Shown here in pieces: positions 8,993 through 52,669 of a stretch of DNA of 64,000 nucleotides. Location of the stretch: contig CALUQX010000006.1 of assembly GCA_944323045.1 (NCBI GenBank), forward strand, positions 1-64,000, given 5' to 3'. The translations under genes and the position numbers were made by a program. The notes below the pieces were generated by a model, which did not search any database, had not been told where the DNA came from, and was given only the letters and a program-made list of their open reading frames with translations. The stretch comes from Candidatus Gastranaerophilales bacterium (GTDB taxonomy: Bacteria > Cyanobacteriota > Vampirovibrionia > Gastranaerophilales > Gastranaerophilaceae). Position 1 is the stretch's first letter. Each line of letters opens with the position of its first letter.

Positions 8993-10759
8993 ATGGGAAT
9001 GGCAGCATCACAAGCTCGTTTTTTGGGGCTTACAGCTCGAAAAACAAATCTTGAATATGAAGGGCAGCAGATAAACCAACAGCGCACTGCTCTCTCTAAT
9101 CAATCTGCTAATTACTATACTCAGCTTCTGGGTATGGAAGTTCCCGTTGTTCCTTCAATTGAAGACTATACAAAAACTGTTTATACATTTAATGACGGTT
9201 CTTTAGAAAATACTATTACATCATTAATGGCACAGGGAAATGGAAATTATAAAGTCAGTTACCTGTCAAAATGGAATGATGATTTTTCTATAATTGCAGC
9301 AGGTGCAACTTCATTGGTCAACGCTCAAAATGGTACTTACTTTGTTGGTAAAGATCAATTGAAACCTCTCGGTGAAGGTTTCTCTCAAGCTAAAAGAGCT
9401 ACCAATGCTCAAGGTGAAACATTTAGATTAACAGATTCACTTTCTTATACTGATAACGGCAAAACAGTTCAACTGGTCAAAGCTGATTACAACAAAATTT
9501 GTTCAGTTATTGGTAAAGAACCTCAGCTTGCTGATTACAGCATGGCAGGGCTTGCGGCAGATTACAAACAGACACAGTGTTATAGCGCAGTTTATAGTGA
9601 TAATCCTAATTTGCAACAGGGGCACCTTGAACACAACCTGTGTAAATTAATATGGGATAAAGATGTTGTTGGTGAATCAATCACTTCATCCAGCGGTGTA
9701 ACGTTGACAAGCAACAGACCGAAGGGTGTTACTTCATTGTGTACTGATTGGGGGACTTCAAGTAATGCTCCGGATGCTACAACATTGGCTATTAAGAATA
9801 AATTGCTGGATTATTATCCTGATGTATATCAAGAAATGATTGATTTATATGTAGATTTAGTTTTATATATGAGCGATCATCCGTGTGGTTCATCCGGTTA
9901 TGAAGTACACGATTATCAGCTTTCTACCACAACTTATGACCATAATGCAATTACTGCAGACAGTCTGCTTTCAAGATGGGAAGATTTCTGGCAGACAGTA
10001 GAAAACTTGAAACCGGAAAACCTGTATGATGAAGCACACGCTAAATGGCAGGAAGAATACGATAAATATACAAATAAATATATGAATGCAGCTGATTATA
10101 CAGATGTTTACGATATAGATCAGGCATTATTTTACGATGGTCAGGACGGATATTTATCAACTTTGACTAATGAACAGCTAGAACAGCTTTATGAAGGTGA
10201 AAGATATTACGCAACACAGTTAAACAAGTTATATGGTGAACCTGATAACGGCTGGTATGTAAGATATTTACAAGATTCTACAACCGGTGAATATTATCCT
10301 GTGTTCTACAACGGGGATGACATGGCAGAAGGTGTAAAAATTGAAAACGGCGATATATTCTCCTATGTAAAAACTTACAAAGTTGGCACACAAGAAAAAG
10401 TTAACGAAGTTAAACAACAGGATGCAAAAATCGAACAGGATTCAACCGGACGTTACATCAATATAACTCTGTACGATATGAACAACAATCCGACAACTTA
10501 TGCGCTCACAACAAATACAGTTACTGATCAGGCAGCATACGATGATGCTATGAATCAGTATGAATATGACAAGTACCGCTATGATCAGTCTATTCAAGAA
10601 ATTAATGCTAAAATTGAAATTACGCATAGCGAAGATAAAAACCTTGAATTACGCTTAAAACAGCTTGATACAGAACAGGATGCAATTTCTACAGAAATGG
10701 ATGCTGTACAAAAAGTTATTGAAAAGAACGTAGAATCAACATTCAAAATTTTTGGTTAA
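8993..10759 (+). CDS. MGMAASQAR-family protein, axial/flagellin-like architecture
   Basis: 588 residues, no signal peptide. The N-terminus (MGMAASQARFLGLTARK, then a Gln-rich helix to about residue 50) matches the gene at 33413-35419. The C-terminal 60 residues form a coiled coil ending in LDTEQDAIST...IEKNVESTFKIFG, again shared with that paralogue. The 450 residues between are Tyr/Asp/Asn-rich and do not visibly align. Conserved ends around a variable middle is the layout of flagellin, hook-associated and other exported axial proteins. The sigma-28-like promoter 35 bases upstream supports such a role by inference. Homology to a named flagellar protein is not evident. AAGGGA precedes the ATG. 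Confidence 0.75.
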   Translation: MGMAASQARFLGLTARKTNLEYEGQQINQQRTALSNQSANYYTQLLGMEVPVVPSIEDYTKTVYTFNDGSLENTITSLMAQGNGNYKVSYLSKWNDDFSIIAAGATSLVNAQNGTYFVGKDQLKPLGEGFSQAKRATNAQGETFRLTDSLSYTDNGKTVQLVKADYNKICSVIGKEPQLADYSMAGLAADYKQTQCYSAVYSDNPNLQQGHLEHNLCKLIWDKDVVGESITSSSGVTLTSNRPKGVTSLCTDWGTSSNAPDATTLAIKNKLLDYYPDVYQEMIDLYVDLVLYMSDHPCGSSGYEVHDYQLSTTTYDHNAITADSLLSRWEDFWQTVENLKPENLYDEAHAKWQEEYDKYTNKYMNAADYTDVYDIDQALFYDGQDGYLSTLTNEQLEQLYEGERYYATQLNKLYGEPDNGWYVRYLQDSTTGEYYPVFYNGDDMAEGVKIENGDIFSYVKTYKVGTQEKVNEVKQQDAKIEQDSTGRYINITLYDMNNNPTTYALTTNTVTDQAAYDDAMNQYEYDKYRYDQSIQEINAKIEITHSEDKNLELRLKQLDTEQDAISTEMDAVQKVIEKNVESTFKIFG

Positions 10760-10816
10760 TGCATAATTTTTTCCTTATTTATGCTAGAATAATTGTATAG
10801 AATAAGGAGAATGATT

Positions 10817-12058
10817 ATGGGATTGACTTTAGCGGAAAAAATTATCTCTAAACATGCCGGCAAAGAAGTTCATGCCGGTGAACTTGTTATTGCAAATGTA
10901 GATGTTTGCGCTGTGCAGGATGGAACCGGACCACTCACCGTACAGGAGTTTAAAAAACTTGGAAAAGAGAAATTAAACAACCCGCAGCGTACAATCCTTT
11001 TTATAGACCACGCATCTCCGAGTCCTAGAAAAGAGTTGTCAAATACTCATACAGTTCTCAGAGAATTTGCAAAGGAATACGGGGCTGTATTGTCAGATGT
11101 TGGTGCTGGCGTCTGCCACCAGAGACTTGTTGAAACATTTGTAAATCCGGGTGAAATTCTAGTAGGTGCGGATTCACACACCTGTACATCCGGTGCACTC
11201 GGTGCTTTTGCTACCGGCATGGGCTCAACTGATATCGCGGTTGCAATGGCGCTTGGAAAAACTTGGTTAAAAGTACCGGCGACTTTTAAAATTGAAGTAA
11301 CCGGTAAATTCAAAGAAGGCATATGTTCAAAAGATTTGATGCTTCATCTTATCGGGATGATAGGGGCTGACGGTGCTACTTATAAAGCCTTAGAATTTTG
11401 TGGAGACACAATTGACAATATGGAAATGTCAGAACGCTTTACTCTCGCAAATATGGCGGTTGAAGCAGGTGCTAAAGCCGGTCTGTTCGTTGCTGATGAA
11501 AAAACTAGAGCTTTCTTAAAATCACGCGGCAGGGAAGATAAATTTTCTACTCTTAAGCCTGACAGTGATGCTGTTTATGAACGCATCATAAAAATTAATG
11601 CAGAAGATGTTCCGCATACTGTTTCCTGCCCGCATACTGTTGATAATACAAAAACTGTTGAAGAATTAAAAGATATCAAGGTAGATCAGGTATTTGTCGG
11701 TACTTGTACTAACGGGCGTATTGAAGATTTACGGATTGTTGCAAAAATCTTAAAAGGCAAAAAAGTTTGTCCTGATGTTAGAATGCTTATTTGTCCGGCA
11801 TCAAAAGATGTTTATCTTCAAGCGCTGGATGAGGGATTAATTACAACATTTGTAGAAGCAAATGCTGCAATACTGCCGCCGGGCTGTGGACCTTGTGTCG
11901 GTGTTCATGCCGGTACGCTTGCTGACGGTGAAGTTTGTCTTGCAACCCAGAACAGAAACTTTCAGGGCAGAATGGGTAACACAAATGGATTTATCTATCT
12001 TTCATCCCCTTATGTTGCAGCCTACACTGCATTAACGGGTTACATCAACGCCGGTTAA
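10817..12058 (+). CDS. leuC: 3-isopropylmalate / homoaconitate dehydratase large subunit
   Basis: About 413 residues of the aconitase superfamily, two-subunit type. Substrate and cluster motifs are clear: DHASPSPRKE, GADSHTCTSGALGAFATGMGS, VGTCTNGRIEDL and PPGCGPCVG; the three cysteines of the last two motifs plus TCTSG bind the 4Fe-4S cluster. It isomerises 2-isopropylmalate (or homocitrate/citramalate) together with a small subunit, which is at 55975-56469 rather than adjacent. ATG 10817 was chosen because AAGGAG (10804-10809) is 7 bases upstream; ATG 10811 would be too close. Substrate choice is inferred from family only. Confidence 0.9.
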   Translation: MGLTLAEKIISKHAGKEVHAGELVIANVDVCAVQDGTGPLTVQEFKKLGKEKLNNPQRTILFIDHASPSPRKELSNTHTVLREFAKEYGAVLSDVGAGVCHQRLVETFVNPGEILVGADSHTCTSGALGAFATGMGSTDIAVAMALGKTWLKVPATFKIEVTGKFKEGICSKDLMLHLIGMIGADGATYKALEFCGDTIDNMEMSERFTLANMAVEAGAKAGLFVADEKTRAFLKSRGREDKFSTLKPDSDAVYERIIKINAEDVPHTVSCPHTVDNTKTVEELKDIKVDQVFVGTCTNGRIEDLRIVAKILKGKKVCPDVRMLICPASKDVYLQALDEGLITTFVEANAAILPPGCGPCVGVHAGTLADGEVCLATQNRNFQGRMGNTNGFIYLSSPYVAAYTALTGYINAG

Positions 12059-12158
12059 GTTATAATCTTTCAGAAAAAAAGATACTCCATAGAATCTATA
12101 GTAAAGTGTGAGTTAATAGCAGGCTGAATTTCTTACTATGTTATTGTAAGGAGTTCTT

Positions 12159-12755
12159 ATGCCTGATAAATTGCAGTACAAAAAAATGTCGACCGAAGAA
12201 CTTGTCATTCTGTCCCAGCAGAATGACTTAAAGGCTATGGAAGAATTAATCAGGCGCGAACAGAAAAATATATTTACAACATTCTCATATCTAAGCCAGA
12301 AGCGCGAAAATGTTGCGGATTTAACTCAAGAGGCTTTACTCAGACTTGCTAAAAATATTCAAAACCTTAAAAATCCAAAACTCTTCAAAAGCTGGCTGAA
12401 TCAGATTGTTACAAATTTATTTTATGATGAACTTCGTAAATCTCAGAGACGTCCTGATATAATTTCTATTGATGATGAAGACAATGACAATCCTGCACTG
12501 TCAATAAAATTTCAACTTCCGGATAAAAAGTGCAAACCGCCGGAAAAATGCATATCATCGGAACTTGAAAAAATAATTAAATCGGCAATACTGGAACTGC
12601 CGGAACCTTTTAGAGTTGCAATAATATTACGCGAACTTCAGGGACTCAGTTATGAAGAAATAGCAGAAGCCACAAATGCAAGTATCGGTACTGTAAAGTC
12701 CAGAATAGCCCGTGCACGCGGAAAACTTCAGGACGGACTCAAATCATATATATAG
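12159..12755 (+). CDS. ECF-type RNA polymerase sigma factor
   Basis: 198 residues with a region-2 helix set (DLTQEALLRLAKNIQNL, then FKSWLNQIVTNLFYDELRK) and a region-4 helix-turn-helix (LPEPFRVAIILRELQGLSY followed by EEIAEATNASIGTVKSRI). A 35-residue acidic linker lies between them. Region 3 is absent, as in group 4 (ECF) factors. AAGGAG precedes the ATG. The next gene, 9 bases downstream, encodes a zinc-finger membrane anti-sigma factor, so this is a classical sigma/anti-sigma pair responding to an envelope or redox cue. The regulon is unknown. Confidence 0.92.
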   Translation: MPDKLQYKKMSTEELVILSQQNDLKAMEELIRREQKNIFTTFSYLSQKRENVADLTQEALLRLAKNIQNLKNPKLFKSWLNQIVTNLFYDELRKSQRRPDIISIDDEDNDNPALSIKFQLPDKKCKPPEKCISSELEKIIKSAILELPEPFRVAIILRELQGLSYEEIAEATNASIGTVKSRIARARGKLQDGLKSYI

Positions 12756-12764
12756 GAGAAAATT

Positions 12765-13307
12765 ATGCAAAGAGAATTAACCTGTGAGCAGGTTGGCGCA
12801 ATTATAACTTTTTATATAGAAGGCAGACTTTCCGACCCATTACAAAAAGCTGTCCGGCATCATCTTGAGATATGTCCGGAATGTAATGCAAAATACGAAG
12901 AAATTAAACAGATGCTTATGCGTTATAAAAATAAGAAGTGCCCGAACAATATAGAAGATGATGTCCAGAACAATTTTAAACAGAAACAGTATGCTGAATT
13001 TAAGTCAAATCTTTCAGCATATTTAGATAATGAACTGGATGACAAAGAAAATATCAGGATAAAAAAAATTACCATATCAAATCCGATAGCAAGAAAAGAT
13101 CTTGAAGAAATGTATGCATTTAAACGTCTTCTGCACAATTCATTTGAAAAAACAAAAAGTGATATTAAATATGATTTTTCCAAACAGGTTTTAAGCCAGA
13201 TGAATTTGCCTGATAAAAGCAGCGAACCGAATTTCAGAAGACTGGTTGTGCTGTTCTGTCTTATGTTCGCTATAATTGTAATATTTGCATTAAATCTGTG
13301 GGGTTAA
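12765..13307 (+). CDS. Membrane-anchored zinc-finger anti-sigma factor
   Basis: 180 residues. N-terminal HC2-type zinc-finger domain: Cys at residue 5, then HHLEICPEC, which gives the HxxxCxxC ZAS motif. The central part is charged with a second partial domain (SAYLDNELDD), and a single C-terminal transmembrane helix (LVVLFCLMFAIIVIFALNL) ends the protein. This orientation puts the sigma-binding domain in the cytoplasm and leaves almost nothing outside. It follows the ECF gene by 9 bases. Its stop codon overlaps the convergent gene at TTAA. Confidence 0.88.
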   Translation: MQRELTCEQVGAIITFYIEGRLSDPLQKAVRHHLEICPECNAKYEEIKQMLMRYKNKKCPNNIEDDVQNNFKQKQYAEFKSNLSAYLDNELDDKENIRIKKITISNPIARKDLEEMYAFKRLLHNSFEKTKSDIKYDFSKQVLSQMNLPDKSSEPNFRRLVVLFCLMFAIIVIFALNLWG

Positions 13308-13972
13308 ACTCTTAGACCAGGATTTTTTGTTGAATATTTTAAAGCAGACAGTTTTTGGTAATCAGCAATAGAAATACCTTTCGGGTGCTGAATGTTTTTC
13401 ATCTGATATTCCTGCCTGTGTGCAAGCGCCTTCTTCTGTCTTTTAGATGCATATTCGTTACGAAGAATCGGGGTCAGAATATTACAGGAGATGATTGAGC
13501 CGACAGTGCTTGTTACAACGTCGACGCCATTTTTAAATGCTTTATAATGGTCAGCAAGTGAGCCAAGATTGTCCAATTCACCAATGTTAAAGTCGCGTTT
13601 GCCGACTCTTCCCATTAATTCATTTTTCTCAAGAAAATTTCGTATTCTTTTAGTTCTGAGTTTGCCTGTAGAAACGAGTTTAGCGCCGAAACTTTTCATA
13701 GAATTTGTAATCAAATAGAACGAAATTATGTTTACGGCTGCATCGGCAATTTCCTGCGGGATTAAGAAAGATTTTTGTTCAGAGGAAATTTTATCATTGA
13801 ATACAACTGCCCCGACCTGCGCAAGAGAGGACAATATCCAGCCGAGAGTGCCGGTATGAACAAGCATTTTACCCGGATTTTCGCCATAATTTTTCAGCAT
13901 GTGGACTTTGAATTTTGACCACTGATTTGCAATTTTTGAAGGTACTTTTTCCATAAAGGAGGCTAAACTCAT
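13304..13972 (-). CDS. Lineage-specific membrane protein
   Basis: 222 residues, family not recognised. Hydrophobic segments near residues 40-60 (LVHTGTLGWILSSLAQVGAVVF), 85-105 (AAVNIISFYLITN) and 150-170 (VVTSTVGSIISCNILTPIL), with a basic C-terminus. A strong Shine-Dalgarno (AGGAGGTGA) sits just before the ATG, inside the end of the upstream gene, which overlaps by 4 bases. The two genes clearly form one operon and encode proteins of similar style. Function unknown. Confidence 0.75.
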   Translation of the reverse strand: MSLASFMEKVPSKIANQWSKFKVHMLKNYGENPGKMLVHTGTLGWILSSLAQVGAVVFNDKISSEQKSFLIPQEIADAAVNIISFYLITNSMKSFGAKLVSTGKLRTKRIRNFLEKNELMGRVGKRDFNIGELDNLGSLADHYKAFKNGVDVVTSTVGSIISCNILTPILRNEYASKRQKKALAHRQEYQMKNIQHPKGISIADYQKLSALKYSTKNPGLRV

Positions 13973-14544
13973 TTCTTATCACCTCCTGAATTTTTTACCA
14001 TAAGGTTAGTCAGAAATTTGGTGAGCGGAGCATCAATTATGAAATTGGTGAACATCATAACGACCAGCGCGACGACTGTACCCATGGCATTTTGATATTG
14101 CTTGTAGGCTTCAGTATTTGTAGAACGTGCGCCTTTCGGGGTGAATAAAGTTCTATAACGCGATACACCGGGTGCCGGCAGCTGTGACCAGGCGCGAATT
14201 GCTTTAATGGCGCCTTTTCTGATAGCATAACCGGTTAGAGTACCTGCAATAATTTTGGCGATAGTACGGCAGACAGATACGCGTCGGGTTTCTTCATCAA
14301 CATTTTTATTTTTTGCATCAATAAAAGGCTGGGTCATCAATGCCGTAACCCCTAATATAAGTCTGTTTTCTGCTGAAGATATGTCGTGTCCGATATCGCT
14401 TATCATTTTTACAGTTTTAGGTTTGTTGAATGTCGCGTCAGGCAAAAGGTCTAAAGCTCCCTGCTCAAAACGGTGTGCCTGTTTTTGCACACCTTTGTAA
14501 AGCGAGGTATTTCTAAACGTATTAACTAAATTTTTGATAATCAC
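13969..14544 (-). CDS. Lineage-specific membrane protein
   Basis: About 191 residues, family not recognised. Hydrophobic segments at AENRLILGVTALM, AKIIAGTLTGYAI and GTVVALVVMMFTNFIID, with several basic loops. I prefer the GTG start at 14544, preceded by GGGTGA; the frame is open to a TTG at 14583 without a ribosome site, which would add 13 residues. The last four bases overlap the start of the following membrane-protein gene. The two may form a complex; no function can be given. Confidence 0.65.
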   Translation of the reverse strand: MIIKNLVNTFRNTSLYKGVQKQAHRFEQGALDLLPDATFNKPKTVKMISDIGHDISSAENRLILGVTALMTQPFIDAKNKNVDEETRRVSVCRTIAKIIAGTLTGYAIRKGAIKAIRAWSQLPAPGVSRYRTLFTPKGARSTNTEAYKQYQNAMGTVVALVVMMFTNFIIDAPLTKFLTNLMVKNSGGDKK

Positions 14545-14603
14545 GACACATTCACCCGAGTCTATAAAGTTTGTCAAGCTCAATAATTGCTAAAAAATTC
14601 GGA

Positions 14604-14625
14604 TTTGTAAAGGATTTTTTACAAA
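14604..14625. promoter_or_regulatory. Perfect 8-bp inverted repeat
   Basis: TTTGTAAA and TTTACAAA flank a 6-base spacer, between two minus-strand genes. It could be an operator for the 13.3-14.5 kb pair or a weak AT-rich terminator for the gene at 14682-15176. Neither is proven. Confidence 0.4.
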
Positions 14626-14681
14626 GCACATGGCGCACAGTATTACCCTATGCAAACCTTACAATGCTGTCATAAGAGATA

Positions 14682-15176
14682 TTATTTGGTTGTTTCTGCA
14701 CTGAATATTTTTAAATCTGGAGATTTTGCAACAGATTTTTGTACATCCTTTACGCATTTTGTAAATATTAATTTCCAGAATTCACCGGCAAATTCCGAAT
14801 CAAATGTTTTATCATTTTTTTCCATTTTATTTAGCAAATCGCGGGCGTATTCAATGTTTTTATTAGTATGTTTGTATATTCCCAGCAGTTTTGCCATAGA
14901 ATCTGCTATTTTCTCATCAGAATTTTTTAATAATGCGGTAACTTTATTTTTTGCCAGTTTACAGTAGCTAATGCCGCTGTTTTGAAGCATGTGACATATA
15001 TCTACTGACCCATTATCGTCTTTCATTAGTACAAATGTATCACTAGGTGCATCTGTTGTCTTTTTTTCAAAAATTCCGGCGATATTTTTCCAGCGTTTAA
15101 CATTTGTTGTCATACTGCTTACGTCTAATTTTGCTGTAAAATTAATCTGATTGTTATGCGGGGTAATTCCGTTCAT
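14682..15176 (-). CDS. Hypothetical protein with N-terminal NFTAK signature
   Basis: 164 residues, no transmembrane segment or signal peptide. The N-terminus reads MNGITPHNNQINFTAKLD, which shares the short N/A-F-x-[AGS]-K pattern with the proteins at 38305 and 41256. The remainder is predicted helical (KVTALLKNSDEKIADSMAKL; EFWKLIFTKCVKDVQKSV). AGGAG precedes the ATG. It stands alone between the membrane pair and the RNA-containing intergenic region. Function unknown. Confidence 0.7.
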   Translation of the reverse strand: MNGITPHNNQINFTAKLDVSSMTTNVKRWKNIAGIFEKKTTDAPSDTFVLMKDDNGSVDICHMLQNSGISYCKLAKNKVTALLKNSDEKIADSMAKLLGIYKHTNKNIEYARDLLNKMEKNDKTFDSEFAGEFWKLIFTKCVKDVQKSVAKSPDLKIFSAETTK

Positions 15177-15334
15177 TTCTGTAACTCCTGTATTTATAAG
15201 TTGACAGGTGTTTTAAAACTTGAACAAAAAGATATTTGCTGATATATAATTTTTTATATTGAATTGTTTTAATCAGGTCAAAACAAGTGTAAAAATGCCT
15301 CTATTTAGTTTTGTAACCCTTTTCCGGTAAGGGG

Positions 15335-15363
15335 TTGCGGTATTCTGCATTTTGTGCTATAAT
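15335..15363 (+). promoter_or_regulatory. Vegetative promoter upstream of structured RNA
   Basis: TTGCGG (15335-15340), 17-base spacer and a perfect TATAAT (15358-15363). Predicted transcription start is about 15370, directly at the 5' arm of the RNA stem. A short inverted repeat (AACCCTT / AAGGGGTT) precedes the -35 box. Confidence 0.7.
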
Positions 15364-15370
15364 TGTAGTA

Positions 15371-15514
15371 GAGGGGCGTATACCCTGAATGACTTAGAGG
15401 CTAAATCAATACAATGCGGCAATGGTCGCAGCGTTTATACCTAAAAGTCAAGGCAGATAGAACTTCTCCTACAACGCCCGCAAAAAGTGAATATCAGTTT
15501 TGGTGTACACCCCT
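15371..15514 (+). ncRNA. Unassigned structured RNA or mRNA leader
   Basis: Most of the 413-base gap at 15177-15590. A 13-base closing stem is visible: AGGGGCGTATACC (15372-15384) pairs with GGTGTACACCCCT (15502-15514), with one mismatch and one G-U. Inside, TGACTT..AGG pairs with CCT..AAGTCA, capped by a TGCG/CGCA hairpin. A good promoter starts right at the stem. The next gene (NAGPA protein) begins 76 bases after the stem, so this is either a leader/riboswitch or an independent RNA of about 150 bases (6S-like size). It does not match tmRNA, RNase P, SRP, TPP, SAM, c-di-GMP or c-di-AMP signatures that I know. 15177-15330 shows nothing else. Confidence 0.55.
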
Positions 15515-15590
15515 TGATGAGTGTTATTCCCCACACCACTCTTAAATCAAAAAGGTATCCGGTTACTTTTGAAATTCTATAGGTGACATT

Positions 15591-16856
15591 ATGGATACTA
15601 TGTTTTCTGTACGGCAAAACGACAATTTGAGTTTAATCGGGATATTTGCAGGTATTTCGATTATGACAACACTCATTTGCTTTCAAGGGTTCTCTATCTA
15701 TGCAAGCGATATCTATATCGCGAAAAAATCTGTACCTGCGTTAAATATTGATACCGGTCAGGTAAAAGAAAGGATATTTGAAAAATTCTCACCTGAATTA
15801 CGGCAGAAAGAGTTTGACGAATCTGTCCGGCAAAAGTATCCAAAAGCAGTAATTACAGATGTCACCGGCGGGGTAAAGCATATTAAACTTACAAAATACT
15901 ATGCGGGTAGACCGGTAAGAATTAATGTAGTAGAAATCGATAATCTTTTGACTGATAATCTGGTCTTGAAACCCGCGCTCTCTTCCTCCACAACATTAAG
16001 AAGCAGAAGAACTATTTCAAACATAGCAAAAAATTCAAATGCAATTGTTGCATTAAACGGTACATATTTTAAGCCACAGACAGGCGTTCCGCTCGGAACT
16101 TTGATGATTGATGAAACTATGTACACAGGACCTGTATATGACAGGGTTGCTCTCGGCATATTTGATGACGGATTTGACGTAGCAAGGGTTCAGTTGAATG
16201 CGTCAATAAAAGCACGCTCAGTTGAAATTAAAATTGATAATATTAATCAGCCGAGAATGCTTTCAACTCATGTTATAGCATATACAAAAGCCTGGGGAAA
16301 TAGTTCTCCGGCATCACCAAAATACGGTACTCAAATTGCAATAGACAGTACCGGTGCAATTGTCGGTGCATCAGCAAACTCTATGGCTATTCCTGATAAC
16401 GGTTATGTAATAGTTGGTCCTAAATCAAAATTACAGGCATTATGGGGCATTAAAAAAGCAAAAGTAGATATCTCAACAACTCCTGAATGGAAGAATGTCC
16501 GGCATATAATAAGCGGCGGACCATACTTAGTAAAAAATGGTGAAGTTTTTGTTGATATGACGGCACAAAAGCTCGGTTCAATAGGTGGTCGTAACCCGCG
16601 CAGTGCAATAGGTTATACTGCTGATAACAGATTGATTCTGGTTGCTGTTGACGGCAGAGAAGGAAGTTCTGTTGGTATGACATTAATGGAACTTGCTAAC
16701 TTTATGAAATCAGCCGGCTGTATCGGCGCAATTAACCTTGACGGCGGCGGGTCTACCGTAATGTATGTAAACGGACAAATCGTTAACAAACCGCAGGTTA
16801 GAGGCGGCATTCCACTGTCAAATGCTGTTGTCTTAACACGTCAGGATGAAGCATAA
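15591..16856 (+). CDS. Secreted/anchored phosphodiester glycosidase (NAGPA) domain protein
   Basis: 421 residues. An N-terminal hydrophobic helix (LIGIFAGISIMTTLICFQGF, residues 16-35) serves as signal or anchor. The rest matches the NAGPA domain (PF09992): ALNGTYFKPQTGVPLGTLMI, a GGPYLVKNG loop, NPRSAIGYT, DGREGSSVGMTLMELANFM and the diagnostic INLDGGGSTVMYVNG. Related proteins cleave sugar phosphodiesters or occur in exopolysaccharide and cell-wall metabolism. Expected location is the cell surface. The structured RNA directly upstream may control it. Exact substrate unknown. Confidence 0.88.
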   Translation: MDTMFSVRQNDNLSLIGIFAGISIMTTLICFQGFSIYASDIYIAKKSVPALNIDTGQVKERIFEKFSPELRQKEFDESVRQKYPKAVITDVTGGVKHIKLTKYYAGRPVRINVVEIDNLLTDNLVLKPALSSSTTLRSRRTISNIAKNSNAIVALNGTYFKPQTGVPLGTLMIDETMYTGPVYDRVALGIFDDGFDVARVQLNASIKARSVEIKIDNINQPRMLSTHVIAYTKAWGNSSPASPKYGTQIAIDSTGAIVGASANSMAIPDNGYVIVGPKSKLQALWGIKKAKVDISTTPEWKNVRHIISGGPYLVKNGEVFVDMTAQKLGSIGGRNPRSAIGYTADNRLILVAVDGREGSSVGMTLMELANFMKSAGCIGAINLDGGGSTVMYVNGQIVNKPQVRGGIPLSNAVVLTRQDEA

Positions 16857-16862
16857 GCTGTC

Positions 16863-17270
16863 TTAATGTCTTACATTCTGGTCAATAATTTCTGACACGT
16901 AAGGTATATATGTGTATTTGCCGCAGAATGCTGTAATTCCCATATATAACAGTGCCAGTGCCACAACAATCTGTATTATAGAATAATTCATAAATACAGG
17001 AGCATTCAAAAATACAACGATGTTAAGCACAACAACATTCAAAAACGGCACAACGCTGATAATATTAATCAAGAATGCAAGCAGCATATTAAGCAAAAAC
17101 AGCGCGATTGAAATGAATATAGACTGAAATATATGGTACTGCATAAAAGGTCGCAATTTTGCGTTTGTGAACAGCCCCAGAATTAACCATATGAAACCTA
17201 TCATGCCCATAGTAGGGTAAGTTAATGCTGCAACAATTCTTTCAATAAGGTAGGGTCTATTATTCTCCAT
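16863..17270 (-). CDS. Small polytopic membrane protein, Tic20-like
   Basis: 135 residues with four hydrophobic segments (MGMIGFIWLILGLF; IFISIALFLLNMLLAFLI; VVVLNIVVFLNAPVF; IQIVVALALLYMGI). The first loop, RPFMQYHIFQSIFISI, resembles the arginine/histidine-containing motif of cyanobacterial Tic20/Ycf60 proteins, which would fit a relative of Cyanobacteria. DUF4870-type proteins are the alternative. The ATG overlaps the upstream TPR stop as TAATG, so translation is coupled. Function in this lineage is unknown. Confidence 0.6.
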   Translation of the reverse strand: MENNRPYLIERIVAALTYPTMGMIGFIWLILGLFTNAKLRPFMQYHIFQSIFISIALFLLNMLLAFLINIISVVPFLNVVVLNIVVFLNAPVFMNYSIIQIVVALALLYMGITAFCGKYTYIPYVSEIIDQNVRH

Positions 17271-18337
17271 TATGCTGTTTTTAGTTCTCCGTTACGTTTT
17301 TTGTCTATATATTCATCAATAATCTGATAATAGATAAGCTTGAATTCATCATTTTCAGGTTCTATATTTATAGAAGCCCTGTAAGATGCAATCGCCTGTT
17401 CAATATCTCCCTGAAGATAGTGTGCATTTCCCAGAAGCATATATGTTTCTGCACTGTTAGGTTTAAGCATCAGGCAGTGCTTGTACAAATCCATAGCCAT
17501 ATCAAGGTGATTGAAGTTTGTATACAGGTTGGCAAGCAAAATTTGGGCATCGGTTTCTTTTGGTGAAACATTAATCGCGCGTTTGTACATTTCTACAGCC
17601 ATATCATATTCACTGAATTCAGAAAGAGAAATAGCATAGCAAATGTAAGCCTGATAATTGTCACCTTCCATTGTTAAAGCTTTTTCAAAATAATTGTATG
17701 CCTGCTGGCGTTCTCGCATAAGTGTCAGAGTGTTTCCTATACATATTGCAACAATTTTGTTGTCAGGGTTGAGCAGGAATACATGTTTATACAATTCTAA
17801 TGCAGTTGCATAGTCAAATAACTTAAAGCAGACATTTCCCATGTCAATTAATGCTGTTATGTTATCAGGATCAAGCGAAAGTGCTTTTTCATAATATGCC
17901 TTTGCCTCAACGTATTCTTCAATATCCTGATATAAAAGCGCTATGGCATTGTATATTTCAGGATTTGTTGAATTAAGATCAATTGCGCGGTTGTAGTAGA
18001 AAAGTGCTTTGTCAAAGTTTTTCCACTCTGCAAATACGTTGCCCATGTTGTAATAAATCAGATAATTTTTCGGATTAAGTTCCAGTGCGCGGTTGTAATA
18101 TGAGAGTGATTTTCTGAAATCTTTTTCATAAAACCACATAGTCCCCATTCCAATAAGTCCCTGAACATCATCCGGATGTATTGTCAAAAGACTTTCCAGA
18201 ACAGAAATTACTTTATCGTAATTTTGCTGTTGAATGTATAATTCTGAAAGTCTGTGGTAATGATCCGGATTTTGTGGATCTTTTGCCATTGCTAATATCG
18301 CTTCGTCAATCTTCTTATCTATTTCTGATTTACTCAT
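17270..18337 (-). CDS. Tetratricopeptide repeat protein
   Basis: 355 residues, about nine consecutive TPR units (for example LIGMGTMWFYEKDFRKSLSY, YYNMGNVFAEWKNFDKALFY and LLANLYTNFNHLDMAMDLY). No signal peptide or enzymatic domain. AGGATAA precedes the start. It is coupled to the downstream Tic20-like gene through a 1-base stop/start overlap, which suggests that this soluble scaffold works with the membrane protein. It lies 78 bases after rsfS. Confidence 0.9.
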   Translation of the reverse strand: MSKSEIDKKIDEAILAMAKDPQNPDHYHRLSELYIQQQNYDKVISVLESLLTIHPDDVQGLIGMGTMWFYEKDFRKSLSYYNRALELNPKNYLIYYNMGNVFAEWKNFDKALFYYNRAIDLNSTNPEIYNAIALLYQDIEEYVEAKAYYEKALSLDPDNITALIDMGNVCFKLFDYATALELYKHVFLLNPDNKIVAICIGNTLTLMRERQQAYNYFEKALTMEGDNYQAYICYAISLSEFSEYDMAVEMYKRAINVSPKETDAQILLANLYTNFNHLDMAMDLYKHCLMLKPNSAETYMLLGNAHYLQGDIEQAIASYRASINIEPENDEFKLIYYQIIDEYIDKKRNGELKTA

Positions 18338-19341: not shown

Positions 19342-20073
19342 TTATTCCTCTTCAGTTGATGGTTTTGTCGCAAACGGATTGCTGTCACCGCCTGTATATA
19401 ATTGCCTCATTGCCTTATCCATTGCCGCATCTAATTCATTTGATGTTGTGATTGATGAGGCTGTTATGGCTGCTGCATCTCCGCCGTATTTTAATGTGTC
19501 AGGGAATAAAAATGTTGCCTTGTATGAACCATCACTTTGTTTTTCAAGTTTAATATCTTTAATTATACCCTTGTATAGTGATTTTAATTCAGCAGCAGCG
19601 TCATCGATATTTTCCGGCAAGTTGCTTTCAAACGGTTTAACTTCGACTCCTTCCGGTGCTTTGGCAGTTACCACTACTTGCTGTAGCATGCCGCCGAATA
19701 GTGTTTTTTCTGTACCTGTATCATCATTGGTAGGTGTTGTTGGATTGTTATCAGGATTTTCTGGTCCGCCCTGATCTCCTGTTTCTTCTACCTCATCTTT
19801 ACCGCCAAATAGACTTGCTACTAGTCCGCCAAGCCCAATCAATCCTGTTGCCACTGTCAACCCGCCGACAAGCTTATCTACCCAGCTTGATTTTTTACCC
19901 TCACAACAGCCCCCGCCGCTATCCACGTTGACGACGGTTGTTTTATTAATATGAGTATCGCCGCCTACAATAACGTTCACACCTTTAAATCCGGTGCTTC
20001 TGACGCCGTTGTAGGATTGTGGTTTAATTGTTTTGACCGGGGTGCTTGTATACCCGACGCCGCCAATACCCAT
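19342..20073 (-). CDS. Lineage-specific surface-type protein, shared-element family member 1
   Basis: 243 residues, not recognised. Order: a short N-terminus containing STGFKGVNVIVGG, a beta-strand motif HINKTTVVNVDSGGGCC, a hydrophobic glycine-rich segment (LVGGLTVATGLIGLGGLVASLFGG, about residues 68-91), an acidic Asp/Glu/Pro/Thr linker, and a small alpha/beta C-terminal domain. The next two genes upstream have the same plan: strand motif, Cys/Gly patch, hydrophobic segment, acidic linker, variable C-domain. All have the same upstream element (here 20093-20136). GAGGAACAC precedes the start. Probably membrane-associated or exported; function unknown. Confidence 0.72.
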   Translation of the reverse strand: MGIGGVGYTSTPVKTIKPQSYNGVRSTGFKGVNVIVGGDTHINKTTVVNVDSGGGCCEGKKSSWVDKLVGGLTVATGLIGLGGLVASLFGGKDEVEETGDQGGPENPDNNPTTPTNDDTGTEKTLFGGMLQQVVVTAKAPEGVEVKPFESNLPENIDDAAAELKSLYKGIIKDIKLEKQSDGSYKATFLFPDTLKYGGDAAAITASSITTSNELDAAMDKAMRQLYTGGDSNPFATKPSTEEE

Positions 20074-20092
20074 TGTCGTGTTCCTCTTATTC

Positions 20093-20136
20093 TATACTCT
20101 TATATATATAAAGTATATATCTTTTAAATAATTGCC
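20093..20136 (-). promoter_or_regulatory. Shared composite upstream element, copy 1
   Basis: Reading the minus strand: GGCAATTATTTA (20136-20125), 7 bases, then an imperfect palindrome whose outer arms are TATACT and AGTATA around a perfect 12-base TTATATATATAA. It lies about 20 bases before the ATG. Copies 2, 3 and 4 keep the 7-base spacing. It could be a noncanonical promoter plus operator. Confidence 0.7.
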
Positions 20137-20181
20137 TTTTTCTTGAATTTCCCCTTTACATTACTTAACATTTTAAAATGC

Positions 20182-20216
20182 AAAAAAATACCTCCTAAAA
20201 TCATCAGGAGGTATTT
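20182..20216 (-). terminator. Rho-independent terminator
   Basis: Perfect 11-bp stem AAATACCTCCT / AGGAGGTATTT with a 9-base loop, then a run of T on the minus strand. Its 5' arm overlaps the stop codon of the 20215-21066 gene. Confidence 0.85.
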
Positions 20217-21066
20217 ATTCATCTTCATTTTGTGATAGCCATTTGTCCCTTGCGGCGACGGCTGCATCTTTGTTATCAAATGTTGCGCTGTATGCATCCT
20301 CGCCATTTTTCGTACCATTAACATCATATGTTGTTGTTTGTGATGATGGGATTTTCGCGTTATACATTCCGCCTACTGTGAATTCTTTTACAGTACCTAT
20401 AACGCTGTTGTCGTTATTTAATTTATATACATTATCTCCGACTTTAATTTCATTTGGCAAATACATTTTTCTAGGCATATCCGCTGAATTGAAGTTCGTC
20501 ATACCGTTAGCCTTTTTCAGTTCACGCATTGCCGCTTTTCTATCGGCACCTGAGATACCAGGATACTTGGCATCAAGTACATCATACCAGCATTCTCCGT
20601 GTTTTACCGTATGTGTTGCACCTTCCTGTTCAATTGTTTTAGGAGTTATGGTTGCATCATATACATCTTTTGTATCTGCCTCAGGTTTAGGTTCTGTTGG
20701 AATTTCTTCTGTATGAACTTTTTCAGGTTCCGGTTTTGGCGTATCAGGTGGTTGTACACCGCCTTGACCGTCATCGTCCTCAACCGGTGCCGGATTATCT
20801 TTTTTGAACAAGCCCAACAGACTCATTAATCCTGTAAAGAGTGCCGGCATTGCATCCGTCCAGCTCGTCTGTGGCTGGACAAAACACGGTGCAGGTGTAG
20901 AACAGCAATTGCTCTGCTTGCTATTAATAATGATATTTTCATTTACGTAGGTGTTTTGCTGGATTTTAACGGCTGGTTTATAGCCTCTAAATTGTCCGGC
21001 TCTTAGTGCTACGCCTCCCGCACTCGTGCGGCTTGTGTTGCACCCGACCATGTTATACATAGCCAT
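20215..21066 (-). CDS. Lineage-specific surface-type protein with LysM-like C-terminus, member 2
   Basis: 283 residues. N-terminus has the FRGYKP and YVNENIIINSK strand motifs and a cysteine-bearing patch (CCSTPAPC). A hydrophobic segment (MPALFTGLMSLLGLF) follows, then a long Pro/Glu linker (about residues 95-135). The next part looks like a LysM domain: HTVKHGECWYDVLDAKYP, then MRELKKANGM and MYLPNEIKVG, the usual start, helix and end of that peptidoglycan-binding fold. This suggests cell-wall association. Same plan and upstream element as members 1 and 3. LysM assignment is by pattern only. Confidence 0.75.
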   Translation of the reverse strand: MAMYNMVGCNTSRTSAGGVALRAGQFRGYKPAVKIQQNTYVNENIIINSKQSNCCSTPAPCFVQPQTSWTDAMPALFTGLMSLLGLFKKDNPAPVEDDDGQGGVQPPDTPKPEPEKVHTEEIPTEPKPEADTKDVYDATITPKTIEQEGATHTVKHGECWYDVLDAKYPGISGADRKAAMRELKKANGMTNFNSADMPRKMYLPNEIKVGDNVYKLNNDNSVIGTVKEFTVGGMYNAKIPSSQTTTYDVNGTKNGEDAYSATFDNKDAAVAARDKWLSQNEDE

Positions 21067-21085
21067 AGCGTGTTCCTCTTATTTG

Positions 21086-21129
21086 TATACTCTTATATAT
21101 ATAAAGTATATAAATAGTAAATAATTGCC
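21086..21129 (-). promoter_or_regulatory. Shared composite upstream element, copy 2
   Basis: Core 21086-21110 is identical to copy 1 over all 25 bases; the GGCAATTATTTA box (21129-21118) is again 7 bases away. The 7-base spacer itself differs from copy 1. Confidence 0.7.
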
Positions 21130-21160
21130 TTTTTTTGCCCTTATGTTAAGTTTTGTTAAC

Positions 21161-21196
21161 AAAAAAATATGACTTCCTTATTTGAAAGTCATATTT
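21161..21196 (-). terminator. Rho-independent terminator
   Basis: Stem AAATATGACTT / AAGTCATATTT followed on the minus strand by T7. It lies 30 bases after the stop of the 21226-22857 gene. Confidence 0.82.
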
Positions 21197-21225
21197 GTAA
21201 ATTAGCTGGATAATTATGCGTCTAT

Positions 21226-22857
21226 TTAGTCTTTTTTGTTGAGCCAGCTTACACAGAAGTCGTCTAACTGTGCTCTGGTGAGTTTGCCGCTGTTTTGAGC
21301 AAACAGATCTGTCATAAACTGTACGTACTGTTGTTTTGTGACTTTGCCTGTACCTTTAGACATTGCATAGAAGAGATTTTTCAAATGTGCTTCGTCTGCT
21401 GCTGTCATATCAACAGTGTTATATTTTTGTCTTTCGGTATCACGTTTTAGGAACCCGTCTTTTGCATTGAGTTCATAATCTTTATGATATTTGATGAATT
21501 CTTGTTCTGTTATGTGTTGTTTTGCATCTTTGACATTGTCTTCAAACATATTTTCGAATGTCTTTTCAAAATCAGCTGCACTGTGTTTTCCTAATTCAAC
21601 AAATGTATTTTTGTTGTTTCTTAACAAGAATGCACCATATGTTTCTGTGTTAGAGATTTGCTGTTTAGTAAGACTCAGTTGACCGTCAGTGTACATTCTG
21701 TCTTTGTCATTATTCAGGAAGTTGTTATATGATACTTGGCTTTCTGGACTTGAACTATAATTTTTTTCAGCATTTACAGCATATTTTAATGCATTAATGC
21801 TCAAGTTGGTATACTTGCCGTAATCATATGTACCGTCCGGATTCAGAATAACGTCAGAAGGGACATTACCGAATGTATCTTTCAATTCAGCCATCATGGC
21901 TTCAGTTTGTTCTCTAGTCATTCCTTCCGTTCTGGAGCCGCGTCCGTCCGGACGTTGAGCGCCTGCGTCGTCATCGACTTCTGTTGTACCTGAATGTGTA
22001 GGGGAAGTTTCTGTGTCATCATCAACTTCTGTAGTATCAGAAGGCGGTGGTGTAACAACTGTTTCATCTACATCAGTGTCATCTTCTAATTCTTCATGAT
22101 GAACTGTGCTTGTATCATCAGTTACATCCGTATCCACGGTTTCATCTGTGTCGTCAGCATCATCAGTTTCATCAGCGTCATCTGTTCGGCGTGCCTGAAC
22201 AAGCCCTTCCTGTAACTCAATAAAGTTTCTTAAATCAGTTACTGTATTAAATGTTTTACCTTTATATGTATATTGTTGACCATTTGCGCTCATTTGCGGA
22301 ACTTCTTCGTTCTGACCAAAAGTGAACCCGTAGTCATTATTCAAATCTTTTACCATAGCGGTAAGTTCATTGCTTCTTGAGGCTAACTGTGCTTGCTGCT
22401 GTCCATATATGCCCTGCATAGCGCCTAACTGACCTAAATTGCCCTGCCCGTATAAGCCGGCATTGAACCCTGTATTATATCCGTTGTTATAGCCACCCTG
22501 CATACCACCGCCATATAATCCGGCGTTAAATCCCATATTATAACCGCCCGGTGTATATAGCCCTGCATTGAATCCCATATTGTAGCCGTTATACCCCGGC
22601 ATATACATTGTTGGCTGCTGCATAACCGTAGTCTGTGAGCCTCTGCCGAGCAATCCGCCGAGCAGAGTTGTAAACATACCAATTCCCCATGCCCATGCAC
22701 CGGTTCTGCTCATTCCAAATCCGCCGCCGCAATGATGAACATGTCCGCCGCAACCGTGACTGCCGCCGACATTAATGTTAATAATATCTGTGTGGTTTAT
22801 GGTGCGTCCGCCATAAATTGGTCTGTGTCTAAAAAATGCAGGAATATGTGGTGACAT
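21226..22857 (-). CDS. Lineage-specific surface-type protein with Gly-Tyr-Asn repeats and EF-hand-like C-terminus, member 3
   Basis: 543 residues from the ATG at 22857 (MSPHIPAFF), chosen because GAGGT precedes it; the longer frame begins inside the shared upstream element. N-terminal strand motif HTDIININVGG and a Gly/His/Cys patch match members 1 and 2, followed by a hydrophobic segment (GAWAWGIGMFTTLLGGLLG). Then at least three repeats of G-Y-N-x-G-F-N-A-G-L-Y, a Thr/Asp linker (TDETDDADDTDE...), and a C-terminal domain with EF-hand-like loops (NNDKDRMYTDGQLSLTKQ; SKGTGKVTKQQYVQFM; NSGKLTRAQLDDF). The loops are degenerate, so calcium binding is only possible. Likely an adhesive or surface protein. 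Confidence 0.72.
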   Translation of the reverse strand: MSPHIPAFFRHRPIYGGRTINHTDIININVGGSHGCGGHVHHCGGGFGMSRTGAWAWGIGMFTTLLGGLLGRGSQTTVMQQPTMYMPGYNGYNMGFNAGLYTPGGYNMGFNAGLYGGGMQGGYNNGYNTGFNAGLYGQGNLGQLGAMQGIYGQQQAQLASRSNELTAMVKDLNNDYGFTFGQNEEVPQMSANGQQYTYKGKTFNTVTDLRNFIELQEGLVQARRTDDADETDDADDTDETVDTDVTDDTSTVHHEELEDDTDVDETVVTPPPSDTTEVDDDTETSPTHSGTTEVDDDAGAQRPDGRGSRTEGMTREQTEAMMAELKDTFGNVPSDVILNPDGTYDYGKYTNLSINALKYAVNAEKNYSSSPESQVSYNNFLNNDKDRMYTDGQLSLTKQQISNTETYGAFLLRNNKNTFVELGKHSAADFEKTFENMFEDNVKDAKQHITEQEFIKYHKDYELNAKDGFLKRDTERQKYNTVDMTAADEAHLKNLFYAMSKGTGKVTKQQYVQFMTDLFAQNSGKLTRAQLDDFCVSWLNKKD

Positions 22858-22880: not shown

Positions 22881-22918
22881 TATACATATATAAAGTATAT
22901 ACTATTTAAATAATTGCT
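22881..22918 (-). promoter_or_regulatory. Shared composite upstream element, copy 3
   Basis: Shorter core (TATACATATATAAAGTATA on the plus strand, 22881-22899) with the same arms, and the AGCAATTATTTA box 7 bases away (22907-22918). It is the most diverged copy in the core but keeps the spacing. Confidence 0.65.
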
Positions 22919-22959
22919 ATATATTCAAAAAATTGCTTAACATTTGTTTACAATAAAAG

Positions 22960-51920: not shown

Positions 51921-52493
51921 TTATCCTCCGCTGCCGTAGTTAGGTTTAAGATTTTCGGCGCCGCTCTTAATATTTTCTTTTGCACCATCTTTCCATTGTT
52001 TGTTGAGTTCAAGTTCTGCCTCAATGTTAGCTTTTTCAACTTCAAGATCAGATTCTAAATCCTTCAGCGGTTCTAATTGCATTTCTTTCATCAATTCTGC
52101 TTCTTGTTCTATGCTTGCAAGATATGTCTGTAAGCTTGACTGAGTTAGCATATTCTGCTGCTGAATAGTATTGTTGATACTTTGCTGCTGTGTAGCATTA
52201 AGTGATGATAAAGCAGAAGAAAATGCACCAGGATTATTCATAAGTGATGCTGCATCAACAGTGAACCCTGCACCTCTAAGTGCATTGGCCTGATTAGTAA
52301 ATATACTTTGATTCATAGTCGCACGTGCCATATTCTGTTGCGTACGCATCCAGTTGTTAATATTTTTTTCAACAGCTTGAGACTGCTTCTGTGCGGTCCT
52401 CATTTGAGACATAACAGAGGTGAGACGGCGTTGCAGTCTGTTCTGCTCACGCGTCAGTATTAAGTTTAAAAAATTACTGGTTAAAAAACCCAT
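51921..52493 (-). CDS. Gln-rich coiled-coil protein under the shared element (member 4)
   Basis: 190 residues, not recognised. MGFLTSNFLNLILTREQNRL followed by long Gln/Asn/Ser-rich helices (SVMSQMRTAQKQSQAVEKNI; SSLNATQQQSINNTIQQQNM), then an acidic helix (LEPLKDLESDLEVEKANIEA) and a GSGG tail. No signal peptide. Its upstream element (52510-52553) is the same as for the three surface-type genes at 19-23 kb, so it probably belongs to the same regulon. GAGGTC precedes the ATG. It could be a secreted or structural helical protein. Confidence 0.72.
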   Translation of the reverse strand: MGFLTSNFLNLILTREQNRLQRRLTSVMSQMRTAQKQSQAVEKNINNWMRTQQNMARATMNQSIFTNQANALRGAGFTVDAASLMNNPGAFSSALSSLNATQQQSINNTIQQQNMLTQSSLQTYLASIEQEAELMKEMQLEPLKDLESDLEVEKANIEAELELNKQWKDGAKENIKSGAENLKPNYGSGG

Positions 52494-52509: not shown

Positions 52510-52553
52510 TATACTCTTAAATATATAAAGTATATACTCTTTATTAAATTGCC
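52510..52553 (-). promoter_or_regulatory. Shared composite upstream element, copy 4
   Basis: Core 52510-52534 has arms TATACT and AGTATA (inner part TTAAATATATAA), with GGCAATTTAATA (52553-52542) again 7 bases away. It lies about 15 bases before the ATG at 52493, 30 kb from the other copies. Confidence 0.68.
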
Positions 52554-52669
52554 TAATATATAATATATGTTAACAATTTGTTACAATTGTGTTAACATAT
52601 CAGATTAATTGCATTTTGGAGATATTTAATCTAAAATATGTTGTGTAAAATTGTAAAGGAGCAAATGCA

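Follow-up and report, generated by a model that had tools for sequence, protein, structure and literature searches.

The closest described counterpart of the control DNA considered here is the HLR1 element of photosynthetic cyanobacteria, a direct repeat of the form TTACA-N5-TTACA recognized by the response regulator RpaB, for which an 18-bp consensus, (G/T)TTACA(T/A)(T/A)NN(G/T)TTACA(T/A)(T/A), has been published (PMC11633204) and which lies upstream at the genes that RpaB activates (PMC6331805, PMC11633204). The RpaB–HLR1 circuit is known as a light and redox master switch, yet RpaA, RpaB and NblS have been known since 2013 in the non-photosynthetic Melainabacteria, with the remark that they "may have another function" (PMC3787301), and orthologs of RpaB have been reported in all three Melainabacteria orders (PMC4040986). 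In a literature search that examined only part of the papers it retrieved, no paper naming a target for these regulators in that lineage was found, and none of those examined dealt with HLR1. On the protein side, the nearest described elements are the LysM domain (PF01476) and the glycine-zipper proteins (PF13441, PF13488), whereas the partial flagellar gene sets of Melainabacteria, described as flagellar genes in all genomes and incomplete sets in most (PMC3787301, PMC4040986), bear on one of the alternative explanations discussed below.

The locus compared here with these systems lies in a stretch of 64,000 nucleotides (the window) from Candidatus Gastranaerophilales bacterium, a gut-dwelling, non-photosynthetic relative of cyanobacteria (assembly GCA_944323045.1, contig CALUQX010000006.1, positions 1 to 64,000). 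Between recG and rpiB, three neighboring genes, A, B and C (Table 1), encode proteins that an earlier note, made from the sequence alone, had described as sharing a strand motif, a Cys/Gly/His patch, a hydrophobic segment and an acidic Pro/Thr linker, followed by different ends (unknown alpha/beta, LysM-like and EF-hand-like). This observation was confirmed. The motifs are INKTTVVNV in C, VNENIIINS in B and HTDIININV in A, each followed by a Cys/Gly/His patch, a Gly-rich hydrophobic segment and, either directly (B and C) or after about 170 further residues with YNMGFNAGL repeats (A), an acidic Pro/Thr stretch. The start of A is better placed at 22857 than at 22887, since an RBS-like GAGG precedes it.

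Table 1. Features of the A–B–C locus and of a fourth gene of the window with the same promoter (promoters and repeats recognized from sequence alone)
Feature	Position	Strand	Description
Gene A	21226..22857	-	543 aa: N-module, Gly-rich hydrophobic segment, Tyr/Asn/Gly repeats, acidic linker, helical C-terminal part ("EF-hand-like" in the earlier note); found in 6 of 6 same-genus genomes among 146 family genomes
Gene B	20215..21066	-	283 aa: N-module, hydrophobic segment, acidic Pro linker, LysM-like domain (predicted)
Gene C	19342..20073	-	243 aa: N-module, TM-like Gly-rich segment, acidic linker, C-terminal domain without known family
N-module of A	22633..22857	-	residues 1-75
N-module of B	20797..21066	-	residues 1-90
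N-module of C	19798..20073	-	residues 1-92
LysM-like part of B	20425..20625	-	residues 148-214; model pLDDT 82.9; LysM chains at rmsd 1.5-2.9
Promoter of A	22883..22917	-	GCAATTATTTA...TATATACTTTATATATGTA
Promoter of B	21094..21128	-	GCAATTATTTA...TATATACTTTATATATATA
Promoter of C	20101..20135	-	GCAATTATTTA...TATATACTTTATATATATA
HLR1-like direct repeat before A	22938..22952	-	1 mismatch to the published 18-bp consensus
HLR1-like direct repeat before B	21144..21158	+	opposite orientation; 2 mismatches
HLR1-like direct repeat before C	20156..20170	-	1 mismatch
Terminator-like hairpin and T run after A	21165..21196	-	
Terminator-like hairpin and T run after B	20186..20216	-	
Fourth gene under the same promoter	51921..52493	-	190 aa, leaderless, no family (helical by inspection)
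Promoter core of the fourth gene	52518..52536	-	
HLR1-like repeat of the fourth gene	52571..52585	-	

Whether the shared N-terminal module exceeds chance was examined by comparing gap-trimmed profiles with column-shuffled ones. B versus C scored 30.0, a value reached by 0 of 300 shuffles, while A versus C alone scored 13.2 and was not significant (18 of 150 shuffles as high). A joined the family only through its relatives: the A-type set (12 sequences, with relatives from other genera) compared with the N-module family (25 sequences) scored 45.2, with 0 of 300 shuffles as high, although in a first, untrimmed version of this comparison 2 of 100 shuffles did as well. Of 60 Gastranaerophilales genomes, 12 carry module genes beside rpiB by HMM (14 when two A-type cases are included); HMM hits were found only beside rpiB, and the same recG–module–rpiB arrangement was seen in other genera. 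Although a pattern search alone missed rpiB in 11 of 40 loci, the gene was placed in all the loci given; several contigs, however, end within 3 kb of rpiB, so that an absence of module genes is not shown there. The C-terminal parts of 38 proteins fell into 13 BLAST clusters, and in one genome two neighboring proteins have N-modules 82% identical over 96 aa (E 1e-47) and C-terminal parts without any hit to each other. One sequence, L045_A, is absent from the module comparisons, the C-terminal clustering, the hydrophobicity and charge survey, the promoter alignment, the repeat and consensus counts and the examination of the flagellar-type loci, but it is included in the gene A set and in the whole-ORF and whole-DNA scans.

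The earlier interpretation, namely a lineage-specific, domain-shuffling surface module with LysM-like and EF-hand-like ends, was only partly supported. A lineage-restricted family with exchanged C-terminal ends is real. The LysM-like end of B is supported by a predicted structure with a beta-alpha-alpha-beta fold, to which LysM chains could be aligned (for example 4uz3_C, 44 of 47 residues, 30% identity), albeit at middling Z (up to 4.8 for LysM chains). This reading rests on a second structural aligner, in which the non-LysM entries 6d7k and 2kvt ranked first at Z 5.9, as Foldseek gave nothing at E<=0.001. By sequence the case is weak: B had no Pfam LysM hit at E<=1, and only 1 of 33 family members had one, at E 0.03. 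B departs from described LysM proteins in its weak sequence match, in having no known ligand and in lacking a signal peptide, and binding to peptidoglycan or chitin would be an inference from fold alone. In contrast, the EF-hand end of A was rejected on sequence evidence only: no Pfam EF-hand hit was obtained at E<=1, and a profile of 6 orthologs found no EF-hand chain in the PDB, while the structural model (pLDDT 41) was too poor to judge a helix-loop-helix pair. Pfam and NCBIfam searches with A, B and C gave no result, so that the end of C has no known family, and PDB profile searches with A and with B returned at best 6ysl (E 0.03) and designed mini-proteins, taken as chance matches. A related LysM-like protein (L015) has weak glycine-zipper hits below cut-off, but A, B and C themselves have none, in spite of their Gly-rich hydrophobic segments.

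The surface location proposed in the earlier note is not shown. A hydrophobicity test (KD15>=1.9 in residues 1-40), which is not a signal-peptide predictor, found a signal-like N-terminus in 0 of 63 proteins downstream of the shared promoter, compared with 180 of 1057 in the background; cleaved signal peptides were rejected. The hydrophobic segment is TM-like only in C (KD19 1.8-2.3) and weak for a membrane span in B (1.2-1.65) and A (0.96-1.3). The N-side of this segment is more positive in 23 of 38 proteins, less so in 6 and tied in 9.

The stronger signal of the locus, which the earlier note had missed, is in the DNA. Each of the three genes is preceded by its own predicted promoter, consisting of a direct repeat situated 47-52 bp upstream of TATATACTTTATATATATAA, which itself lies about 44 bp before the start codon, and the terminator-like hairpins indicate separate units. 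The composite occurs 3 times in the genome, before A, B and C. The exact 20-mer core was found 40 times in 21 of 40 genomes and 0 times in the reversed control, and a promoter matrix found 71 sites in Gastranaerophilales DNA against none over 10 bits in 965 kb of control. This matrix was trained on 35 sites from 38 module proteins (two second genes, L061_X2 and L141_X2, have no site of their own, and L066 is cut off by its contig), so that the module hits are circular and the independent part is the non-module sites and the control. A perfect TGTWA-N5-TGTWA repeat was present, at fixed distance, in 27 of 59 sites against 0.12 expected, and the published HLR1 consensus was matched without mismatch in 11 of 58 sites, with up to 1 mismatch in 22 and with up to 2 in 46, against 0.58 expected in shuffles for the last class. 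These 58 or 59 sites include loci that were retrieved because they hold the core, but the repeat itself was not a criterion. An RpaB gene was detected in one genome of the family, G057, a sister genome of another genus (NF045944, 361 bits over the curated cut-off of 330); this search did not extend to the window's own genome.

All these observations could be integrated by assuming that A, B and C are three members of a family-wide, RpaB-type regulon of leaderless, modular and probably envelope-associated proteins, a reading to which a probability of about 0.5 may be given. In this model, each gene is its own transcription unit, and the OmpR-family response regulator RpaB binds the HLR1-type repeat and, from a position about 50 bp upstream of the core, activates transcription. 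The N-module would dock on or cross the inner membrane through the Gly-rich hydrophobic segment, with the N-terminus inside; the acidic linker and the exchangeable C-terminal domain (LysM-like in B) would face the cell wall, and the strand motif and Gly/His/Cys patch would mediate assembly. What the analysis demonstrates is the shared module, the exchanged ends, the shared promoter, the fit to HLR1, the absence of leader sequences and the existence of an RpaB gene in a sister genome, while RpaB binding, activation, membrane insertion, orientation, wall binding and assembly are inferred without binding or expression data. HLR1-like repeats could serve RpaA or another OmpR-type regulator, and a dedicated sigma factor reading the core element was considered and not excluded. 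Compared with the circuit of photosynthetic cyanobacteria, the putative targets are not photosynthesis or high-light genes, and a second, stereotyped core element follows the repeat at fixed distance. A defined site at defined genes turns the question of what these regulators do in Melainabacteria into one that a gel shift could address, offers a way to find the regulon in other genomes of the order, and gives a first handle on proteins without Pfam families in a common gut lineage.

Among the alternatives, the one that survives best, although it is considered doubtful, is that the proteins stay in the cytoplasm or on the inner face of the membrane as a scaffold, the LysM-like fold having been repurposed as in the cytoplasmic potassium-binding protein Kbp. 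The lack of signal-like N-termini, the weak hydrophobic segments of A and B, the presence of Kbp constructs among the fold and profile matches, and the existence in other genera of stand-alone, leaderless LysM-like proteins of 99-101 aa are in agreement with this view. However, acidic low-complexity linkers and LysM-like ends are more usual outside the cytoplasm, and a CHAP protein appears among the genes with the same promoter.

Somewhat less likely is the possibility that the family and regulon are as proposed, but that the proteins are substrates of a type III-like export apparatus rather than membrane-anchored. FHIPEP was detected in 39 of 40 genomes, with a copy of 708-736 bits in 37 of 40, apart from a flagellar-looking copy of 851-885 bits found in 17. 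The window's own genome has FliE, FliF-, FliH- and FlhA-like genes at one locus and FlgB-, FlgC- and two FlgF/G-like rod genes (named by inspection) at another; Flg_bbr_C proteins number 2 in this genome, 3-8 in the 17 genomes with the flagellar-looking copy and 0-3 in the rest. This near-universal FlhA-like gene of one score group, coexisting with a second FlhA in 17 of 40 genomes, fits a retained export device, apparently a hook-less flagellar-type set, better than decay, in a survey that did not include FliI, FliP, FliQ, FliR or FlhB. The regulon is leaderless throughout and includes a leaderless CHAP protein, which would act outside the cytoplasm. However, no promoter site was found at the flagellar-type loci, no chaperone or export signal was identified, the hydrophobic segment fits a membrane anchor as well, and a link of this apparatus to A, B and C is unproven. 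A bolder view, also unlikely on present evidence, is that the RpaB–HLR1 circuit is older than or independent of photosynthesis, and that in this non-photosynthetic sister lineage it commands a regulon of leaderless modular envelope or secreted proteins, delivered in part by such an apparatus, which the whole family would have kept.

The version of the earlier note, surface proteins specific to the lineage with LysM and EF-hand ends, is less likely still, since, although the module, the exchange of ends and a plausible LysM fold speak for it, the EF-hand end is not supported, no leader was found and a surface location would be conjecture. A phage origin was rejected, as the promoter had 0 matches in viral contigs and the locus is syntenic with housekeeping genes. 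Finally, that the shared promoter is merely a relic of tandem duplication, as the adjacency of A, B and C and their common module might suggest, is very improbable, because the same promoter precedes unrelated genes elsewhere in the same genome and in other genera, with the repeat at the same distance.

The genes under study lie in a 1.98-Mb, 97%-complete genome, whose closest named rpiB relatives with the same neighbourhood (loci L061 and L065) are likewise assigned to the Gastranaerophilales. Between recG and rpiB, on the minus strand, this genome carries genes A (543 aa), B (283 aa) and C (243 aa). A and B were found in all 6 same-genus genomes among the 146 family genomes drawn, and the order A-B-C was seen in the loci that were read. 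A showed no relative in other genera at E<=0.001 (6 of 146 genomes).

The N-terminal module proposed in the earlier note is real, although with a qualification. B and C are related through their N-parts, since none of 300 shuffles scored as high and a B query also retrieved a C orthologue (E 1.1e-5). However, A compared with C alone could not be distinguished from chance (18 of 150 shuffles as high), and it was only with relatives from other genera that the A-type set matched the family (0 of 300; an earlier, untrimmed version of this test had given 2 of 100). An HMM seeded with 15 sequences (B, C, and those of loci L048 and L061) ended with 25 proteins at E<1e-4 among the 2897 ORFs of all loci collected at that stage, all of them at the rpiB locus, while A and its counterparts L158_X1 and L049 followed at E 2.5e-3 to 0.09. 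Of 60 genomes in which rpiB was located, 12 have HMM-positive genes beside it, and two further loci (L146 and L149), recognised by their place, A-type motif and promoter, raise this number to 14, in 8 of 41 genera.

The exchange of C-terminal ends was also observed. The 38 module proteins collected fall into 13 C-terminal clusters at E<1e-4, the clearest case being locus L148, where two neighbours have N-parts 82% identical over 96 residues and C-parts without any match. One of these ends resembles the LysM-like class (weakly, E 0.004 to B), whereas the other resembles the class of L144_X2 and L048 (E 2e-23 and 2e-12). The LysM-like ends reach beyond this locus, as an iterated profile found 37 distinct domains at E<1e-3, many in larger leaderless proteins with Gly-rich hydrophobic segments and strand repeats. 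Among the leaderless LysM-like proteins, those at L037, L022 and L003 bear long runs of short strand-like repeats (NYSGTINYGG, GNDATYGKNVVVE, DYSGKADYSG) next to Gly-rich hydrophobic segments, and those at L032 and L033 combine an EF-hand, a LysM-like domain, a Gly/Ala-rich hydrophobic region and a DnaJ-like C-terminus in one leaderless protein, although their Pfam matches are below cut-off. The predicted structure of the B end (33 sequences, pLDDT 82.9) aligns with many LysM chains at 1.5-2.9 A, but the scores are middling, two non-LysM rows rank first, and the LysM assignment is not reached by sequence, so that the domain is designated here as LysM-like.

Upstream of nearly all module genes, in every genus that has them, stands the same DNA. 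In the own genome the composite GCAATTWTTTA-N4-8-TATACTTTATATATRTA occurs three times, before A, B and C. The 20-base core occurs exactly 40 times in 21 of 40 family genomes and never in the reversed control and, when up to two mismatches are allowed, 17 times in the own genome against 1 in the control. A weight matrix derived from 35 module sites finds 71 distinct sites in the Gastranaerophilales loci examined (many of which were retrieved because they contain the core, so that 71 is not a genome-wide rate) and none above 10 bits in 965 kb from 59 other loci, where the best score was -2.8. The promoter is shared by unrelated genes: that of a 190-aa leaderless protein of no known family within the window, those of small proteins of 75-111 aa and of coiled-coil-like proteins, and that of a leaderless protein combining an EF-hand-like part with a CHAP domain (PF05257, 46 bits over a cut-off of 26), which is encoded by a 271-aa ORF starting 42 bases after the core at locus L221 of genome G036. 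In addition, two adjacent genes of the proposed regulon at locus L234 of genome G007 show strand and Gly patch motifs like those of the module, in a genome whose rpiB has flagellar-type neighbours instead, suggesting that the family may have moved. Since A and B end in terminator-like hairpins, the genes look like separate units.

At 47-52 bp before the core stands a direct repeat, TGTWA-N5-TGTWA, which is perfect in 27 of 59 sites (0.12 expected by dinucleotide shuffling) and has at most one mismatch in 46 of 59 (2.6 expected). Read on the other strand, this is the HLR1 element of RpaB: 11 of 58 sites match the published 18-bp consensus (PMC11633204) without mismatch, and 46 with at most two, where 0.58 would be expected. 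Before B the element has the opposite orientation. One genome of the family (G057) shows an RpaB equivalog, with 361 bits over a cut-off of 330, and rpaB has been reported in the Melainabacteria (PMC4040986, PMC5877343). Di Rienzi et al. wrote that these regulators may have another function there (PMC3787301), and the sites described here are a candidate for that function. While the repeat and its fit to the HLR1 consensus are observed, binding by RpaB is inferred from sequence alone.

Taken together, what the earlier note observed, a shared module with exchanged ends, stands. Its interpretation is only partly supported: the LysM-like end is likely, the EF-hand end is not supported, and a surface location remains, on present evidence, no more than a possibility. 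It is the shared HLR1-type promoter that raises the interest of the locus.

Features observed in addition to genes A, B and C (L numbers denote loci examined; G000 is the own genome, C its contigs)
Feature	Locus	Coordinates	Strand
Hook-less flagellar-type set: FliE, FliF-, FliH-, FlhA-like	L252 (G000:C5)	11931-17981	
Hook-less flagellar-type set: FlgB-, FlgC-, two FlgF/G-like rod genes	L266 (G000:C9)	9304-11632	
Protein with only the cytosolic C-part of FlhA	L254 (G000:C7)	10484-11959	
190-aa protein under the promoter of A, B and C	window	51921-52493	-
LysM-like protein with strand-like repeats	L037	112-1773	
LysM-like protein with strand-like repeats	L022	154-2022	
LysM-like protein with strand-like repeats	L003	1285-2631	
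EF-hand, LysM-like and DnaJ-like protein	L032	47-1945	
EF-hand, LysM-like and DnaJ-like protein	L033	1219-3411	

With respect to location, none of 63 proteins of the proposed regulon has a signal-like hydrophobic N-terminus, against 180 of 1057 background ORFs. The internal hydrophobic segment is TM-like in C but weak in A and B, and its N-side is the more positive in 23 of 38 proteins and the less positive in 6. On this basis, anchoring with the N-terminus inside and the C-part outside is inferred to be most likely, with type III export and a cytoplasmic role considered as serious rivals. Export is favoured by the fact that the family keeps an FlhA-like gene of 708-736 bits in 37 of 40 genomes, apart from a second, flagellar-looking copy present in 17, and that the own genome has a hook-less flagellar-type set, albeit with only two Flg_bbr_C proteins. 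This set looks like a retained second export device rather than the product of decay. Against its involvement, no promoter site was found at these loci. Finally, the own genome also encodes a 491-aa protein corresponding only to the cytosolic C-part of FlhA, and such a truncated FHIPEP match recurs in most family genomes.
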